This document shows positions 8,565-34,944 of a stretch of 64,000 nucleotides of DNA, piece after piece (position 1 is the stretch's first letter; each line of letters begins with the position of its first letter). The DNA comes from Alphaproteobacteria bacterium (GTDB taxonomy: Bacteria; Bacteroidota; Bacteroidia; Bacteroidales; FEN-979): NCBI GenBank assembly GCA_009928665.1, contig SACF01000001.1, positions 62,001 to 126,000 of the forward strand, read 5' to 3'. Both the position numbers and the translations under genes were made by a program. The notes beneath the pieces were generated by a model. That model did not search any database and was not told the DNA's origin. It saw only the letters and a list, made by a program, of their open reading frames with translations.

Positions 8565-9089
8565 ATGGAAAGCAATGTTGTGATACATCCGGATGAAAGG
8601 GTGCATAAGATCTACTCTCTAAGGGGGAAAAAGGTTATGTTTGATTTTGATTTGGCTGACCTTTATGGACTGGAGACCAGGATTTTAAAACAGCAGGTTA
8701 AAAGAAATTTCGAAAGGTTCCCAGGTGACTTTATGTTTCAGTTAACTAAAAATGAGTGGAATGAACTTATCACAAATTGTGATAAGTTCCCCGCAAATCT
8801 CCGGCATTTTCCAGTCACCCCCCTGGCATTTACCGAACAAGGAGTCGCCATGTTATCAAGTGTCCTTCGTTCAAAACAAGCCATCATGGTTAACATTGCC
8901 ATCATGCGGGCCTTTGTCACTTTGCGCCAAATGATTGAATCAAATAAAGAACTTGTTCAAAGAATCGATGAACTGGAACGAAAATACGATTCACAGTTCC
9001 AGGTTGTGTTTGAAGCAATCCGGAAAATGATTACCCGAAAAAATGAACCAAGGGAACGAGTCGGTTATAAGATTTCAGGTTCAGAATAA
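8565..9089 (+). CDS. ORF6N domain protein
   Basis: 174 residues. The N-terminal ~115 residues match the ORF6N DNA-binding domain: RGKKVMFDFDLADLYGLETRILKQ, then NFERFPGDFMFQLT and the AFTEQGVAMLSSVLRS motif. The C-terminus is a charged helix (RIDELERKYDSQFQVVFEAIRKM), probably coiled-coil. ORF6N proteins occur in phages and as scattered single genes in Bacteroidota chromosomes; biological roles are mostly unknown. No phage or integrase gene flanks it. The 178-nt gap upstream (8387-8564) shows nothing recognisable. Confidence 0.88.
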   Translation: MESNVVIHPDERVHKIYSLRGKKVMFDFDLADLYGLETRILKQQVKRNFERFPGDFMFQLTKNEWNELITNCDKFPANLRHFPVTPLAFTEQGVAMLSSVLRSKQAIMVNIAIMRAFVTLRQMIESNKELVQRIDELERKYDSQFQVVFEAIRKMITRKNEPRERVGYKISGSE

Positions 9090-22060: not shown

Positions 22061-22085
22061 AAAAAACCCGGCCATGGCCGGGTTT
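22061..22085 (-). terminator. Rho-independent terminator after the EF-G paralog gene
   Basis: A perfect 10-bp inverted repeat, 22064-22073 with 22076-22085 (AAACCCGGCC/GGCCGGGTTT), is followed on the minus strand by a run of T (22066-22061 and beyond). It lies 21 nt past the stop codon at 22107. Confidence 0.85.
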
Positions 22086-29741: not shown

Positions 29742-30626
29742 TTAACCTTTTAATGCTTCTGCTCCCGATACGATTTCCAGGATATCGTTGGTGATTGCAT
29801 TTTGCCGTGCCTTGTTGTATGAGATATTCAGTTCCCGGAGCAGTTCCGTTGCATTGTCGGTCGCCTTTTGCATGGCAGTCATCCGGGCTCCCTGTTCGGA
29901 AGCAAAAGAATCCAGAATTGCTTTAAATAACTGAATCCGCAGGGTTTTAGGGATGAGCTCACGGACAATGGTTTCACGGTCAGGTTCAAAAATATAATCT
30001 GCAGCGTTTTTTTGTGATGCTTTTATTTCCTGCTCTGCAACAATGGGCAAATATTGTTCAACCACCAACCGTTGGACCGCAGCGTTCTTAAATTGATTGT
30101 ATACCAGTTCAATCCGGTCGAACTCTTTTGCCACGAATCCTTTCATGATTTTTTCGGCCAATGGGGAGACCTGATCAAATGTCAGATGATCAAACAGTTC
30201 ATCATGAGTTTCGAGGACCTTGAATTTTCTTTTCCTGAAATATTCCGTAGCTTTTTTCCCGATGGTAATAAAACTGACATTCCCTTTGCTGTAAGGGTCT
30301 TTATATAAATCGGAGCATAGGGCCAGCGCCGCTTTGATGATGTTTGAATTGAATGCGCCACACAGCCCGCGGTTGGAAGCGATAACGATAAGAAGAATTT
30401 TTTCGGGTTTGCGTTCCTGTGAAAAAACACTTTCCTCGGTGACTTCGATGCTGGAGCACAGGTTTTGCAGTATTTCACGAAGTTTGGCTGCAAAAGGCCG
30501 CAATTTTATGATTGCGGTCTGCGATTTCCGCAATTTGGAAGCCGCCACCATTTTCATGGCGTTGGTGATCTGCTGGGTGGATTTTACCGAGGCGATCCGC
30601 AGTCGTACTTCCTTTAATCCGGCCAT
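29742..30626 (-). CDS. atpG: F-type ATP synthase gamma subunit
   Basis: 294 residues. The typical N-terminal MAGLKEVRLRIASVKSTQQITNAMKMVAASKLRKS and C-terminal YNKARQNAITNDILEIVSGAEAL helices form the rotor coiled-coil; the central SNRGLCGAFNSNI strand is diagnostic. It transmits rotation from the c-ring to the catalytic hexamer. It begins 9 nt after atpA and is the last atp gene here, with no beta or epsilon gene following. Confidence 0.97.
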   Translation of the reverse strand: MAGLKEVRLRIASVKSTQQITNAMKMVAASKLRKSQTAIIKLRPFAAKLREILQNLCSSIEVTEESVFSQERKPEKILLIVIASNRGLCGAFNSNIIKAALALCSDLYKDPYSKGNVSFITIGKKATEYFRKRKFKVLETHDELFDHLTFDQVSPLAEKIMKGFVAKEFDRIELVYNQFKNAAVQRLVVEQYLPIVAEQEIKASQKNAADYIFEPDRETIVRELIPKTLRIQLFKAILDSFASEQGARMTAMQKATDNATELLRELNISYNKARQNAITNDILEIVSGAEALKG

Positions 30627-30635
30627 TTCAGAGGG

Positions 30636-32225
30636 CTATTTCTTTTCTTCGTATTTCTTTGATATTTCCCGTGCAACTTGTTCCATGGTTTTCATATCTT
30701 CATCCAGGATCTTGCCGGCTTTGAGGTTATTGAGAACCGCCTGATGAGTCACATCCATAAAGTGCAAGTATTCCGTTTCGAAATTGTTGATATTTTTCAC
30801 GGGTACATTGCGGAGCAGGCCGCGGGTTCCACAAAAAATTATGGCAATTTGCTTTTCAACGGGCATGGGTGTATACTGCGGTTGCTTGAGGATCTCGACA
30901 TTCCGCGCTCCCTTATCAAGAACCGCCTTTGTTGCGGCATCCAAGTCGGATCCGAATTTTGAGAACGCCTCCAGTTCGCGGTACTCAGCCTGGTCGAGCT
31001 TCAGGGTGCCCGCCACCTTTTTCATCGATTTAATCTGGGCATTTCCCCCAACGCGCGAAACGGAGATCCCAACGTTGATAGCCGGTCGTATTCCTGCGTT
31101 GAAGAGACCTGTTTCCAGGAATATCTGGCCGTCGGTTATGGAGATAACATTCGTGGGGATATAAGCTGAAACGTCGCCAGCCTGGGTTTCGATGATGGGT
31201 AATGCTGTCAGTGATCCTCCGCCTTTGACTTTATTTTTCAGGTTTTCGGGAAGGTCGTTCATCTGGCGGGCAATATCATCAGAGGAGATGATGCGGGCAG
31301 CCCTTTCAAGCAACCGCGAATGCAGGTAGAAAACATCGCCGGGATATGCTTCACGGCCGGGCGGGCGGCGCAGCAAAAGGGACACTTCGCGGTAGGCAAC
31401 CGCCTGTTTTGAAAGGTCATCATAAATCACCAGAGCCGGACGTCCCGTATCACGGAAATACTCCCCGATAGCAGCCCCGGCAAAAGGTGCATAGAATTGC
31501 ATGGCAGCAGGATCCGACGCGGTAGCGGCAACCACGATGGTATATGCCATGGCTCCTTTTTCTTCAAGCGTCTTTACAATATTGGCGACGGTAGAACCCT
31601 TCTGCCCGATTGCCACATAGATACAGTAAACCGGTTCACCACGATGGTAAAATTCTTTCTGATTGATGATTGTATCAATGGCAATGGCGGTTTTCCCGGT
31701 CTGCCGATCGCCAATGATCAGTTCGCGCTGTCCCCGGCCGATCGGAATCATCGCATCGATGGGTTTAATTCCTGTTTGCAAAGGCTGGTTGACAGGCTGG
31801 CGGAAGATTACCCCGGGAGCTTTACGTTCCAGCGGCATTTCAAGTCGTTCCCCTTCAATCCTGCCTTTCCCGTCAATTGGTTCACCCAGGGTGTTGACCA
31901 CGCGCCCGAGCAAACCCTCACCCACTTCGATCGATGCAATTCGGCGGGTACGCTTTACCACATCCCCTTCTTTAATCTCATAGGACTCTCCCAGCATGAC
32001 CGCTCCCACATTGTCAGCCTCAAGATTCAGAACGATCGCTTTCAATCCGTTTTTTTCAAATTCGATCAATTCACCGCTTTCGGCATTGTCCAAACCATAA
32101 ATACGGGCAATGCCATCACCCACGGTGAGGACAGTTCCGACCTCTTCCAGTTCGTATTCGCTGTGATATCCGGCCAGTTCTTTGCGTAATATCGCCGTAA
32201 CTTCAGCAGGCTTAATTTCAGCCAT
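30636..32225 (-). CDS. atpA: F-type ATP synthase alpha subunit
   Basis: 529 residues. Motifs: Walker [53 protein letters not shown] and the [20 protein letters not shown] signature. The alpha subunit forms the non-catalytic nucleotide sites and part of the catalytic interfaces of F1. A 12-bp hairpin lies in the 68-nt gap upstream. Confidence 0.98.
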
Positions 32226-32260: not shown

Positions 32261-32288
32261 GGACGATTGATGAATCCATCAATCGTCC
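32261..32288 (-). other. Perfect 12-bp hairpin between atpH and atpA
   Basis: Arms 32261-32272 and 32277-32288 (GGACGATTGATG / CATCAATCGTCC) with a 4-nt loop. No T-run follows on the minus strand, so transcription should pass through; the structure may protect or process the operon mRNA. Confidence 0.8.
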
Positions 32289-32293
32289 CGTAA

Positions 32294-32854
32294 TTAAAAT
32301 CCTTTTTTGTACAAATTCACTTTGGCGACGGCACTTCGCAGGTTTTCAATTTCCCTTCTGATGCTTGCATCAAATTGTTTATCCTTCCATGAAAGAACAA
32401 ATCCGCCGATCAGGGAGTCATCAATAGCGACCTTCAAGTCGATATCCGACCGGGTATACCGGCTCATGATGGCCATGACGTTCCTTCTGATCTCATCATC
32501 GGGATGAACCGGCGATGAAAAATATACTTTCAAAATGTTTTTATAGGCAAGATACAATTCCACAATCTCAAGGGAGATCTCATGCAGAAATGATTCACGC
32601 CGTTTTCTGACCATGATCAGCATATAGTTCAGGGTCAGCGGCTGAACTTTACCGGAAAAAATATGCCGGATCACGGATAATTTTTTATCTGTATGAATAA
32701 CCGGACTTTTCATTAACAACCTTAACTCGCGATTTTGATCACAGGTCTCCGACACCAGCAAATTATCCCTGTAGACCTCTTCCACAAGGTTTTTCTCGAC
32801 CGAAAGGTCGAAAAGGGCTTTTGCATAACGTTTGGCTACCAGCGAAATTTTCAT
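32294..32854 (-). CDS. atpH: F-type ATP synthase delta subunit
   Basis: 186 residues, from VAKRYAKALFDLSVEKNLVEEV at the N-terminus to the C-terminal IDDSLIGGFVLSWKDKQFDASIRREIENL typical of OSCP/delta. It links F1 to the peripheral b stalk. It is 11 nt downstream of atpF. Confidence 0.96.
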   Translation of the reverse strand: MKISLVAKRYAKALFDLSVEKNLVEEVYRDNLLVSETCDQNRELRLLMKSPVIHTDKKLSVIRHIFSGKVQPLTLNYMLIMVRKRRESFLHEISLEIVELYLAYKNILKVYFSSPVHPDDEIRRNVMAIMSRYTRSDIDLKVAIDDSLIGGFVLSWKDKQFDASIRREIENLRSAVAKVNLYKKGF

Positions 32855-32865
32855 GGGATCACCGG

Positions 32866-33360
32866 TTAGTTGAATTTATAATCTTTGAGCAACCCTTTAA
32901 TGTATGCTTCCTGTTCCCTGGGTTCCGAAAGCTCTCTTTTCAGGATCAATCTGGCCAGGTCAAGGGAACTCTGAGCAATCTGATTTTTCAGTTCGGTCAT
33001 GGCAGCCATTTTTTCGCTGTAGATGCTCTCTTTTGCACTTTCAATTATTCTTGAAGCCTCTTCTCCTGCCTTCAACCGGGCATCTTCAATGATTTTCTCT
33101 TTAATTTTCCGGGCTTCATTCATCATGGCATCCCGCTCGTTTTTGGCTTCCTGCATCAGCTGTTCATTGCTGAATTTGAGCTTTTTCATCTCTTCCTTCG
33201 CCTGATTAGCTGCATTCAGCGCTTCGTGTATCGAAGTTTCACGCTCATGTAGCATTTTTAAAATTGGTTTCCAGGCAAATTTTCCAAGGATGAACAGCAA
33301 CAACAAAAAAGCCAGTGTCATCCAAAAAAGCAATCCCAGTCCCGGCGTTATTAATTCCAT
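32866..33360 (-). CDS. atpF: F-type ATP synthase b subunit
   Basis: 164 residues. One N-terminal TM helix (LGLLFWMTLAFLLLLFILGKFAW) is followed by a long, charged coiled coil (ALNAANQAKEEMKKLKFSNE and on). It forms the peripheral stalk. It follows a strong hairpin after atpE. Confidence 0.96.
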   Translation of the reverse strand: MELITPGLGLLFWMTLAFLLLLFILGKFAWKPILKMLHERETSIHEALNAANQAKEEMKKLKFSNEQLMQEAKNERDAMMNEARKIKEKIIEDARLKAGEEASRIIESAKESIYSEKMAAMTELKNQIAQSSLDLARLILKRELSEPREQEAYIKGLLKDYKFN

Positions 33361-33396
33361 GTCGTTATGTTTTGAAGGTTCTTAATTTCAGGGTAA

Positions 33397-33427
33397 TTCA
33401 CGGAACAACCGATCGTTGTTCCGTGAA
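33397..33427 (-). other. Perfect 13-bp hairpin between atpE and atpF
   Basis: Arms 33397-33409 and 33415-33427 (TTCACGGAACAAC / GTTGTTCCGTGAA) with a 5-nt loop, 13 nt after the atpE stop. No T-run follows on the minus strand. Placement just 3' of the c-subunit gene suits a structure that raises c-subunit mRNA stability relative to its neighbours. Confidence 0.85.
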
Positions 33428-33440
33428 CAACCTGATTCCG

Positions 33441-33734
<294 letters not shown>

Positions 33735-33774: not shown

Positions 33775-34875
33775 TCAATGGTGTTCCGGCTCAATAGTGG
33801 CCAAACCGAAATAGAGCGCCGAAAGAAGGGTGAAAACATACGCCTGGATAAAGGCTACCAGCAGCTCCAGAAGATCCATGAAAACCATGAAAGCTACCGA
33901 TACTACGGAAACGCCCAGTCCCAATGCTGCGCTGATCGCTCCGAAAATAAAGATAAGGCTCACGAATCCGAGTACGATGATGTGCCCGGCGGTAATATTC
34001 GCGAAGAGTCGGACCATCAGTACGAAGGGTTTGGTTATGATCCCGATAATTTCGACAACCGGCATAAGCGGCAACGGAATTTTCAGCCACCAGGGGACAC
34101 CGGGCGTGTTGATGATATCGATCCAATAGTGTTTATTCCCGTTGAGGGTCGTGATGATGAAAGTGAAAACCGCCATGACCAGTGTTACGGCTATGTTCCC
34201 GGTTACGTTTGCTCCTCCCGGGAAGAAGGGTATCAATCCGAAAAGATTGTTGAAGAAGATAAAAAAGAATACAGTCAGAAGAAAGGGCATGAACTTCTCA
34301 TACCGCTTCTCCCCGATCGAACTTTTGGCAATATCATCCCTGATAAACAAAATCAGGGGCTCTAACAGGGATTGTAACCCTTTAGGGGCTGTATTGGGAT
34401 TGTGTTTATACCGGCGAGCCACCGAAACAAAAATCCATATCAACAGTAAAGAGCTAATAAAGATCGCCAGAACCGTTTTGGTGATTGAAAAATCATACAC
34501 CCTGGCGGCAATTGATCCGGACGCCCCTGTATCAGCAACCCTGATAATTTTTCCTTTGTCAGGTCCGTCCTGTTCCAACCTGAATCCCTGATAACTGTGT
34601 GTCTCATTATGAAACCGGTTCGAGGAAAAAACATGTACCTTACCATCATACAACAATATCACGGGCAACGGAACAGTAATATGAAGGCTTCCGATTTCAG
34701 CAATATGCCATTCGTGATTGTCGACAACGTGTTCCATAATCATCCGGCCGGCATTGAAAGATTCCTGTTCTCCGGAAGCGGGATGATCCGCTGTACCGGC
34801 CCTGACGGTACAGGTAAACAGAATCACGAAGAGCATTATCGCTGTCTTCCCGAAAAACAATCCTTTCTTGAGCAT
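33775..34875 (-). CDS. atpB: F-type ATP synthase a subunit, with cleavable N-terminal extension
   Basis: 366 residues from MLKKGLFFGK. A hydrophobic signal-like stretch (TAIMLFVILFTCTVRAGTA) and a ~110-residue periplasmic extension precede the TM domain, which is usual in Bacteroidota. The essential Arg lies in KPFVLMVRLFANITAGHII, followed by the C-terminal helix AYVFTLLSALYFGLA. It forms the ion half-channels against the c-ring. The promoter at 34915-34944 lies within the longest open frame, so the ATG at 34917 cannot be used. First gene of the operon. Confidence 0.95.
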   Translation of the reverse strand: MLKKGLFFGKTAIMLFVILFTCTVRAGTADHPASGEQESFNAGRMIMEHVVDNHEWHIAEIGSLHITVPLPVILLYDGKVHVFSSNRFHNETHSYQGFRLEQDGPDKGKIIRVADTGASGSIAARVYDFSITKTVLAIFISSLLLIWIFVSVARRYKHNPNTAPKGLQSLLEPLILFIRDDIAKSSIGEKRYEKFMPFLLTVFFFIFFNNLFGLIPFFPGGANVTGNIAVTLVMAVFTFIITTLNGNKHYWIDIINTPGVPWWLKIPLPLMPVVEIIGIITKPFVLMVRLFANITAGHIIVLGFVSLIFIFGAISAALGLGVSVVSVAFMVFMDLLELLVAFIQAYVFTLLSALYFGLATIEPEHH

Positions 34876-34914
34876 GGCAGGCATCATGAAGTAAAGGGAA
34901 TCAATATTGAAGTG

Positions 34915-34944
34915 CAAAATTAGAAATTAAACTTTAATTACAAA
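34915..34944 (-). promoter_or_regulatory. Promoter of the ATP synthase operon (TTTG-N18-TAATTTTG)
   Basis: Minus strand: TTTG at 34944-34941 and TAATTTTG at 34922-34915. It is about 40 nt upstream of the atpB ATG and divergent from the TolC gene promoter. Confidence 0.65.

Follow-up and report, generated by a model that had tools for sequence, protein, structure and literature searches.

ATP synthase incorporates some 8 to 15 c subunits per pair of b subunits, all supplied from one operon, and how the excess of the c subunit is achieved is an old question. The stretch of DNA studied here (64,000 nucleotides in full, referred to as the window) raises it in concrete form: six ATP synthase genes lie on the minus strand in the order atpB-atpE-atpF-atpH-atpA-atpG, with products confirmed by NCBIfam models, and the original prediction had placed two perfect intergenic hairpins among them, one behind atpE (H1) and one behind atpH (H2), both of which we located. 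The features concerned are the following.

33775..34917, minus strand: atpB, F0 subunit a (TIGR01131, 128.2 bits, over the cut-off; start codon from a mechanical listing), upstream of atpE
33441..33701, minus strand: atpE, F0 subunit c (TIGR01260, 64.4 bits, over the cut-off), the gene that anchors H1
33397..33427, minus strand: H1, 13 perfect pairs (arms 33415-33427 and 33397-33409) plus an outer G-U pair, 5-nt loop
32866..33360, minus strand: atpF, F0 subunit b (TIGR01144, 100.6 bits, over the cut-off), downstream of H1
32294..32854, minus strand: atpH, F1 subunit delta (TIGR01145, 107 bits, over the cut-off)
32261..32288, minus strand: H2, perfect 12-bp stem, 4-nt loop, between the atpH stop (32294) and the atpA start (32225)
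30636..32225, minus strand: atpA, F1 subunit alpha (TIGR00962, 781.8 bits, over the cut-off), downstream of H2
29742..30626, minus strand: atpG, F1 subunit gamma (TIGR01146, 321.5 bits, over the cut-off), downstream of atpA

As perfect stems, H1 and H2 are both far beyond chance: stems of at least 12 bp with a loop of 3-8 nt occur three times in the 64 kb, versus 0.05 times per dinucleotide-shuffled window (20 shuffles). On the strand of the atp transcript, fold z-scores were -4.4 for the spacer with H1, which sits between the atpE stop (33441) and the atpF start (33360), -4.7 for the spacer with H2, and +0.6 for the atpB-atpE spacer; the atpF-atpH spacer measures 11 nt and is too short for a stem. 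The proposal that the latter two junctions lack such hairpins is thus borne out, as is the lack of a U-tract at H1 and H2: no T-run follows either stem, and both are missing from a scan for intrinsic terminators. The third perfect stem (12 bp, 3-nt loop; window 8763-8789) lies within a plus-strand open reading frame (8565-9089). A GC-rich 9-bp hairpin at window 22064-22085, flanked by A residues on its 5' and T residues on its 3' side and located between two minus-strand frames, resembles an ordinary terminator.

Loci of relatives were collected with AtpH and AtpF as protein queries: AtpH matched 58 of 61 genomes and yielded 30 loci, AtpF yielded 80 loci kept out of 129, and hairpins played no part in either selection. 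Gene ends were set by tblastn. Among the resulting 112 loci, L002 was set aside as the reverse arm of the window's own palindrome, and an atpE-atpF spacer could be taken from 109 of the remaining 111; that of L049 is empty, the called genes overlapping, and the distinct spacers number 92, the window's included. The heptamer CGGTTGG, found with no use of stems, is present in 67 of these 92 spacers versus 0.54 expected (uniform composition), and in none of 85 atpB-atpE, 82 atpF-atpH and 79 atpH-atpA spacers. Its flanks pair at 85-99% per position over the first twelve positions and at 76% at the next, versus 42-76% with arms taken from different sequences, the upper end of this control being due to conservation of the two positions next to the closing pair. 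Reading by eye of the 25 spacers devoid of CGGTTGG revealed 19 hairpins with a related loop, namely GATCG (two, the window and a near relative), GATTG (six, once with the closing pair flipped), GTTTG (one), AAAGG (nine, several of them in Chitinophagaceae, Niabella or Taibaiella records) and ACAGG (one); six spacers (L030, L070, L078, L088, L094, L101) hold neither. When only the strongest hairpin per spacer is considered, 77 of 92 have a 5-nt loop, and 75 of these 77 loops fit R-N-N-N-G, versus 12 of 51 five-base loops of perfect hairpins (either strand) in the background of two Bacteroidia genomes. When the motif and a minimum of 7 pairs out of 10 in the flanks are both required, 80 of 92 spacers qualify. 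In its general form, the family has a stem of some 13-19 bp and a five-base R-N-N-N-G loop, usually GGUUG, closed by C-G. Structure is most pronounced at this junction: among distinct spacers of at least 25 nt, the median fold z-score was -4.9 for atpE-atpF (91 of 92 below -2), 0.2 for atpB-atpE (15 of 83), -1.2 for atpH-atpA (15 of 43) and -3.0 for atpF-atpH (6 of 11, a value from the few long spacers only). The atpF-atpH junction has a median length of 7.5 nt (108 loci); that of L065 carries a perfect 21-bp hairpin.

The analysis of base pairing started from the 87 spacers whose loop takes one of six forms; thinning by identity left 51, of which 35 constituted the alignment and model set. 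Left out were four sequences reversed in their loci (L006, L014, L018, L032) and twelve with a stem weak or shifted in frame or with the AAAGG loop (L024, L027, L068, L070, L083, L085, L086, L094, L104, L105, L106, L109). The 35 sequences align gap-free, with 89.5% of 560 cells paired versus 52.7% (sd 1.6) in shuffles and a covariation score of 0.972 versus 0.244, neither value being reached by any of 500 shuffles; changes on both sides were seen in 15 of 16 pairs, the sixteenth being the invariant C-G next to the loop, and sliding the partner by 1 to 3 bases lowered pairing to 31-45%. The result is the same for the 34 sequences that remain when the window row is taken out. Inclusion of the weak rows weakened the signal only in part: all 51 thinned sequences gave 82.7% paired cells versus 49.8% upon shuffling (highest of 500, 54.2%) and 331 cells changed on both sides versus 118 (highest 148), and in all 87 unthinned sequences 85.6% of cells pair. 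The check by compensatory changes suggested with the original prediction thus came out strongly positive for H1, but for H2 it failed, as set out at the end. The kind of mismatch tolerated reveals the strand. Among the 67 sequences with CGGTTGG, G-U and U-G cells numbered 69 (145 expected from independent columns) and A-C and C-A cells 20 (114 expected), an imbalance with an odds ratio of 2.7 and p 0.0004 (Fisher; a rough value, since cells are not independent). G-U cells being kept over A-C cells, the structure is that of the atp mRNA, the sense strand, and not of the DNA or the opposite strand. Taken together, the H1 family is almost certainly a conserved functional RNA structure.

H1 itself belongs to this family on each count: it is a sense-strand stem in the atpE-atpF spacer, its loop GATCG (33410-33414, closed by C-G) fits R-N-N-N-G as a variant of the commonest loop GGTTG (GGUUG in the RNA) with two positions different, and it scores in a model built from other genomes only. 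With that model (R2; 34 sequences, window excluded), H1 was the best match in the window on both strands (33394-33430, minus strand, 27.4 bits, E 4.8e-5), followed by the same palindrome on its reverse strand (18.9 bits). Model R1, whose training set included H1, gave H1 as its single match in the window's genome (E 1.6e-5). A dispersed REP-like repeat was considered and rejected, as H1 occurs once in its own genome, a second row corresponding to the reverse arm of its palindrome, and R1 matches there a single time. Searches with Rfam 15 (4227 families) gave 0 matches to the window at the gathering score; for twelve loci (the window's L003 and eleven relatives) and E up to 5, they returned nine matches, all to microRNA or snoRNA families below their gathering scores.

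How far does the element extend? The phylum was sampled by 158 genomes, all with an AtpE match and not chosen by hairpin, from which 79 spacers were read: 29 came from search loci other than that of the window, and 50 were fetched to cover all remaining listed members of the window's class plus one or two representatives of each family in other classes; one of the 79 gave no atpF. Hairpins with an R-N-N-N-G loop were found in 28 of 31 Bacteroidia spacers versus none of 47 from other classes (16 of the 47 being from one family, f40), the three Bacteroidia spacers devoid of the loop form being L125, L165 and L168. The sample holds 38 genomes of the class besides the window; in two of the seven outside the 31 read (G062, G081), the hairpin is likewise present between atpE and atpF. 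Judged by these sequence features, the H1-family element is present in most sampled Bacteroidia members, the assignment of the class following relatives from Bacteroidales, Chitinophagaceae and Flavobacteriales. The closing pair is flipped to G-C in two of the 28 hairpins with the loop kept, and the loop varies between genomes (AAAGG, ACAGG, GCUAG and others). Outside the class, 26 of 47 atpE-atpF spacers had a z-score below -2, with different loops. From this distribution, a hairpin in this place may predate the loop, and loop and stem may have different roles. Members of family f40, among them L134-L141, have a strong hairpin of their own behind atpE, with a recurrent CCCGATTGCGGC-like stem.

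Within a genome, the element is nearly unique. With R1, 27 of 41 genomes had a match, 29 matches in all, of which 25 share a contig with an atpH match and lie some 530-880 nt upstream of it, the place expected for the atpE-atpF spacer. The others are L117, between a second atpE and atpF, those of G005 and G006 on other contigs, and a weak one elsewhere (G013:C97, E 0.46). At L117 (G014:C185:76-112), one draft genome shows the atpE-atpF junction and its hairpin a second time, either as a second operon or through assembly contamination. In a search of 149 genomes of the class, 53 matched with one match each, and 49 of these fall in the atpE-atpF spacer (44 assigned by script, L209 from its coordinates, three belonging to previously read loci, plus the window's own); the 96 unmatched genomes are not countable as absences, the model being tuned to GGUUG and the filters strict. 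The four matches outside atp are L215, L239, L240 and L250. Of these, L215 (G282:C4:45730-45766) is a 16-bp hairpin with a CGATTGG loop (E 1.2e-6), off the atp genes and between two convergent reading frames, one of them sigma-factor-like by eye; since L215 scores well, the loop may have rare other uses. L240 (G340:C13:1390-1426), also off the atp genes, is a terminator-like hairpin with a CGGTTGG loop and a T-run; ARAGORN found no tRNA ahead of it. In 400 kb outside atp of each of two Bacteroidia genomes, none of 75 and none of 62 occurrences of CG[GA]TTGG had paired flanks, and none of 28 other perfect hairpins in 80 loci carried a CG[GA]TTGG loop. For the two genomes sampled, these counts led us to reject the idea that the loop is a common Bacteroidota terminator loop.

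The location of the hairpin relative to its neighbors is telling. In 80 spacers, the distance from the loop center to the atpE stop had a median of 31 nt (IQR 29-31, MAD 2, range 12-48), whereas that from the loop to the atpF start had a median of 56.5 nt (MAD 6.5) and ranged from 34 to 212 nt; in 87 spacers, the stem started at a median of 10 nt behind the atpE stop. The distance being steady toward atpE and variable toward atpF, the hairpin belongs to the 3' side of atpE, and a steady site there is in keeping with an influence on what happens to the atpE segment. TAnnTTTG, the Bacteroidota promoter consensus, was seen in one of 92 atpE-atpF spacers versus 2.15 expected, and a promoter for atpF inside this spacer was accordingly rejected; with no conserved promoter there, atpFHAG probably rely on read-through. 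RNA structure, sense strand, loop, anchoring to atpE and near-uniqueness per genome are established by this comparison. Building on them, we infer an effect on the mRNA and a factor that mediates it: H1 would form a 3' boundary at which the atpBE segment is protected or processed, with the loop of the hairpin read in trans, a reading to which we assign a probability of somewhat below one half (about 0.46). As a cis-acting structured element of the atpBEFHAG transcript, the long stem some ten bases behind the atpE stop would block 3'-to-5' exonucleases or direct an endonucleolytic cut just downstream, so that the end of the segment would be set at the hairpin while transcription passes through. 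The atpE message would then outlive that of atpFHAG, and the c subunit would be made in the excess that the c-ring requires. The pentaloop (GGUUG and relatives, R-N-N-N-G) would be read by a trans-acting nuclease or RNA-binding protein. As c is needed far more than b, delta, alpha and gamma, and as the spacer holds no conserved promoter, a protected or processed end of atpBE is the simplest role. Counting against this reading, stability alone would need no conserved loop, the loop has no partner found so far, hairpins behind atpE in other classes bear different loops, and three of 31 Bacteroidia spacers do without the loop form.

It is this loop on which the next explanation builds, according to which H1 is a regulated recognition site where a dedicated protein, be it an assembly factor, a synthase subunit or a Bacteroidota RNA-binding protein, binds R-N-N-N-G and tunes translation or decay of atpE or atpF in response to c-ring assembly or the energy state. 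Such a site would account for conservation of the loop far above that of the stem and for the near confinement of paired CG[GA]TTGG to this locus, as seen in the two 400-kb samples and in the class search. However, for such regulation a position downstream of a gene instead of at a translation start would be unusual, the loop is variable between genomes, and no partner of it was found. On balance, we regard this explanation as rather unlikely. The wider notion of a class-wide recognition element, with a dedicated Bacteroidia factor that reads the R-N-N-N-G pentaloop and thereby sets or senses the supply of c subunit, we consider doubtful; if it were true, an operon among the most conserved in biology would bear a class-specific post-transcriptional dosage control. 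Pairing of the loop with a nearby complementary stretch was considered as well: in a region starting 260 nt ahead of the atpE stop and extending 300 nt into atpF, CAACC occurs in 31 of 67 loci, most often inside atpE (at -111 in 13 loci), and CCAACCG in one of 67, with no conserved partner seen. With respect to mimicry of rRNA, no rRNA gene was found in the window's assembly. RbpB was considered as a reader; in the main text of PMC11697453, the terms 'ATP synthase' and 'atpE' occur 0 times.

A partial terminator or pause site between atpBE and atpFHAG, which would lower downstream transcription, is a serious rival to the protected atpBE end because partial termination would yield the same expression bias. 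The stems are strong, and T-rich stretches are not rare, their number depending on how they are counted. At least 5 T in 8 positions behind the stem were seen in 19 of 87 spacers in a first count, in which the stem end was mis-set in some rows (six with stems of 1 to 3 pairs), and in 28 of 82 with the stem end re-placed (five rows unplaceable); this rose to 52 of 82 when the T stretch was permitted to overlap the 3' arm by up to six bases. Five consecutive T close to the 3' arm were present in 24 of 82. L009, L010, L047 and L061 are clear cases, and of the four matches outside atp, one (L240) is terminator-like with a T-run. Many family members, though not the window's, could therefore terminate transcription in part, and the recount (28 and 52 of 82) makes a stabilizer less favored and a terminator more so. 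Against it stand the window copy with no T-run, the majority of members that have none by the stricter measures (19 of 87, 28 of 82 with one), and the loop, as intrinsic termination needs no conserved loop and this one is not in general use among terminators of the two sampled genomes. We judge this rival unlikely overall. For an insulator of translation, with the stem keeping ribosomes that leave atpE off atpF or keeping the atpF start free, the few bases between stop codon and stem (median 10 nt, 87 spacers) would be suitable, but the wide distance between loop and atpF start (34 to 212 nt) is not, and the loop would go unexplained, which makes it very improbable. That H1 is a neutral palindrome, a dispersed repeat or a chance structure has next to no probability: hairpins are many in Bacteroidota (136 and 196 perfect stems of at least 8 bp in 400 kb each of two genomes), but covariation, the steady site, confinement of CGGTTGG to the atpE-atpF spacer and the single genomic copy refute this for H1.

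By kind, H1 is an intercistronic mRNA hairpin; what is new is the conserved pentaloop, its class-wide range and the site. In the Rhodobacter puf operon, an intercistronic stabilizer hairpin confers a longer life on the upstream segment and thereby unequal output of subunits. H1 resembles it as a stem within an operon; to our knowledge, a loop conserved across a class is not a feature of the puf hairpin. With intrinsic terminators, the H1 family shares a strong stem behind a gene and, in part of its members, T-rich stretches; it differs from them by its position within an operon, its conserved loop and, in the window copy, the lack of a T-run. The E. coli atpE-atpF spacer (61 nt) has moderate structure (-14 kcal/mol, z -2.0) and no 5-nt RNNNG hairpin in its predicted fold. 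The L17 downstream element (RF01708) is likewise a conserved hairpin on the 3'-UTR side of a highly expressed gene for a multi-subunit machine and is argued by its authors (PMC2864571) to act as sense RNA. Unlike H1, it is found in Lactobacillales and Listeria behind the L17 gene and has GNRA tetraloops, and it gave no Rfam match here. The same paper (Weinberg 2010, PMC2864571) lists Bacteroides-1, Bacteroides-2, Bacteroidales-1, Flavo-1 and the GUCCY-hairpin as candidate Bacteroidetes RNA motifs; 'ATP synthase' and 'atpE' occur 0 times in its main text, and those of the motifs present in Rfam 15 had no match to the window or the twelve loci. A published description of a hairpin downstream of atpE was not found in the titles and abstract openings searched or in passages of PMC8040213, PMC9723704, PMC2864571, PMC11697453, PMC7366714 and PMC10450193, a supplementary listing being possible. 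The H1 family could be submitted as a new RNA family. A covarying hairpin with a conserved loop behind atpE, present class-wide, offers a handle on the question of c-subunit excess, and also a defined bait for a reader factor in a group with few known RNA regulators.

H2 is a different matter. A view of the two stems as separators designed to act together finds no support, as H2 is neither conserved nor of the H1 family: with R2 it scored 10.4-11.4 bits (E 2.5-4.7). In the nearest relative (L004, identical to L033), two changes within its 28 nt break pairs 1 and 5, both uncompensated, whereas H1 is unchanged there. No homologous stem was seen in other members of the window's genus, whose atpH-atpA spacers measure 11-22 nt (L005, L008, L009, L014, L020, L022) or have unrelated folds. 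We therefore rejected H2 as a second conserved element in the sense of a homologous stem. H2 occurs once in its genome, where the only further hit is an 18-nt match (E 0.58), and from these comparisons it is best read as a lineage-specific palindrome, for which a neutral or chance origin is the best reading. Some of the unrelated folds at this junction are strong (L019, z -6.1), and several are built of short tandem repeats. Among 14 spacers of at least 40 nt from the same genus or close family, the window's included, nine had z-scores at or below -2.0; their shapes are unrelated, and no loop was seen to be shared. Apart from a homologous stem, some recurrent structure may thus exist at the atpH-atpA junction. 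In L011, L013, L016 and others of the window's genus, this spacer is filled with short tandem repeats of the CTATTTCGC type.
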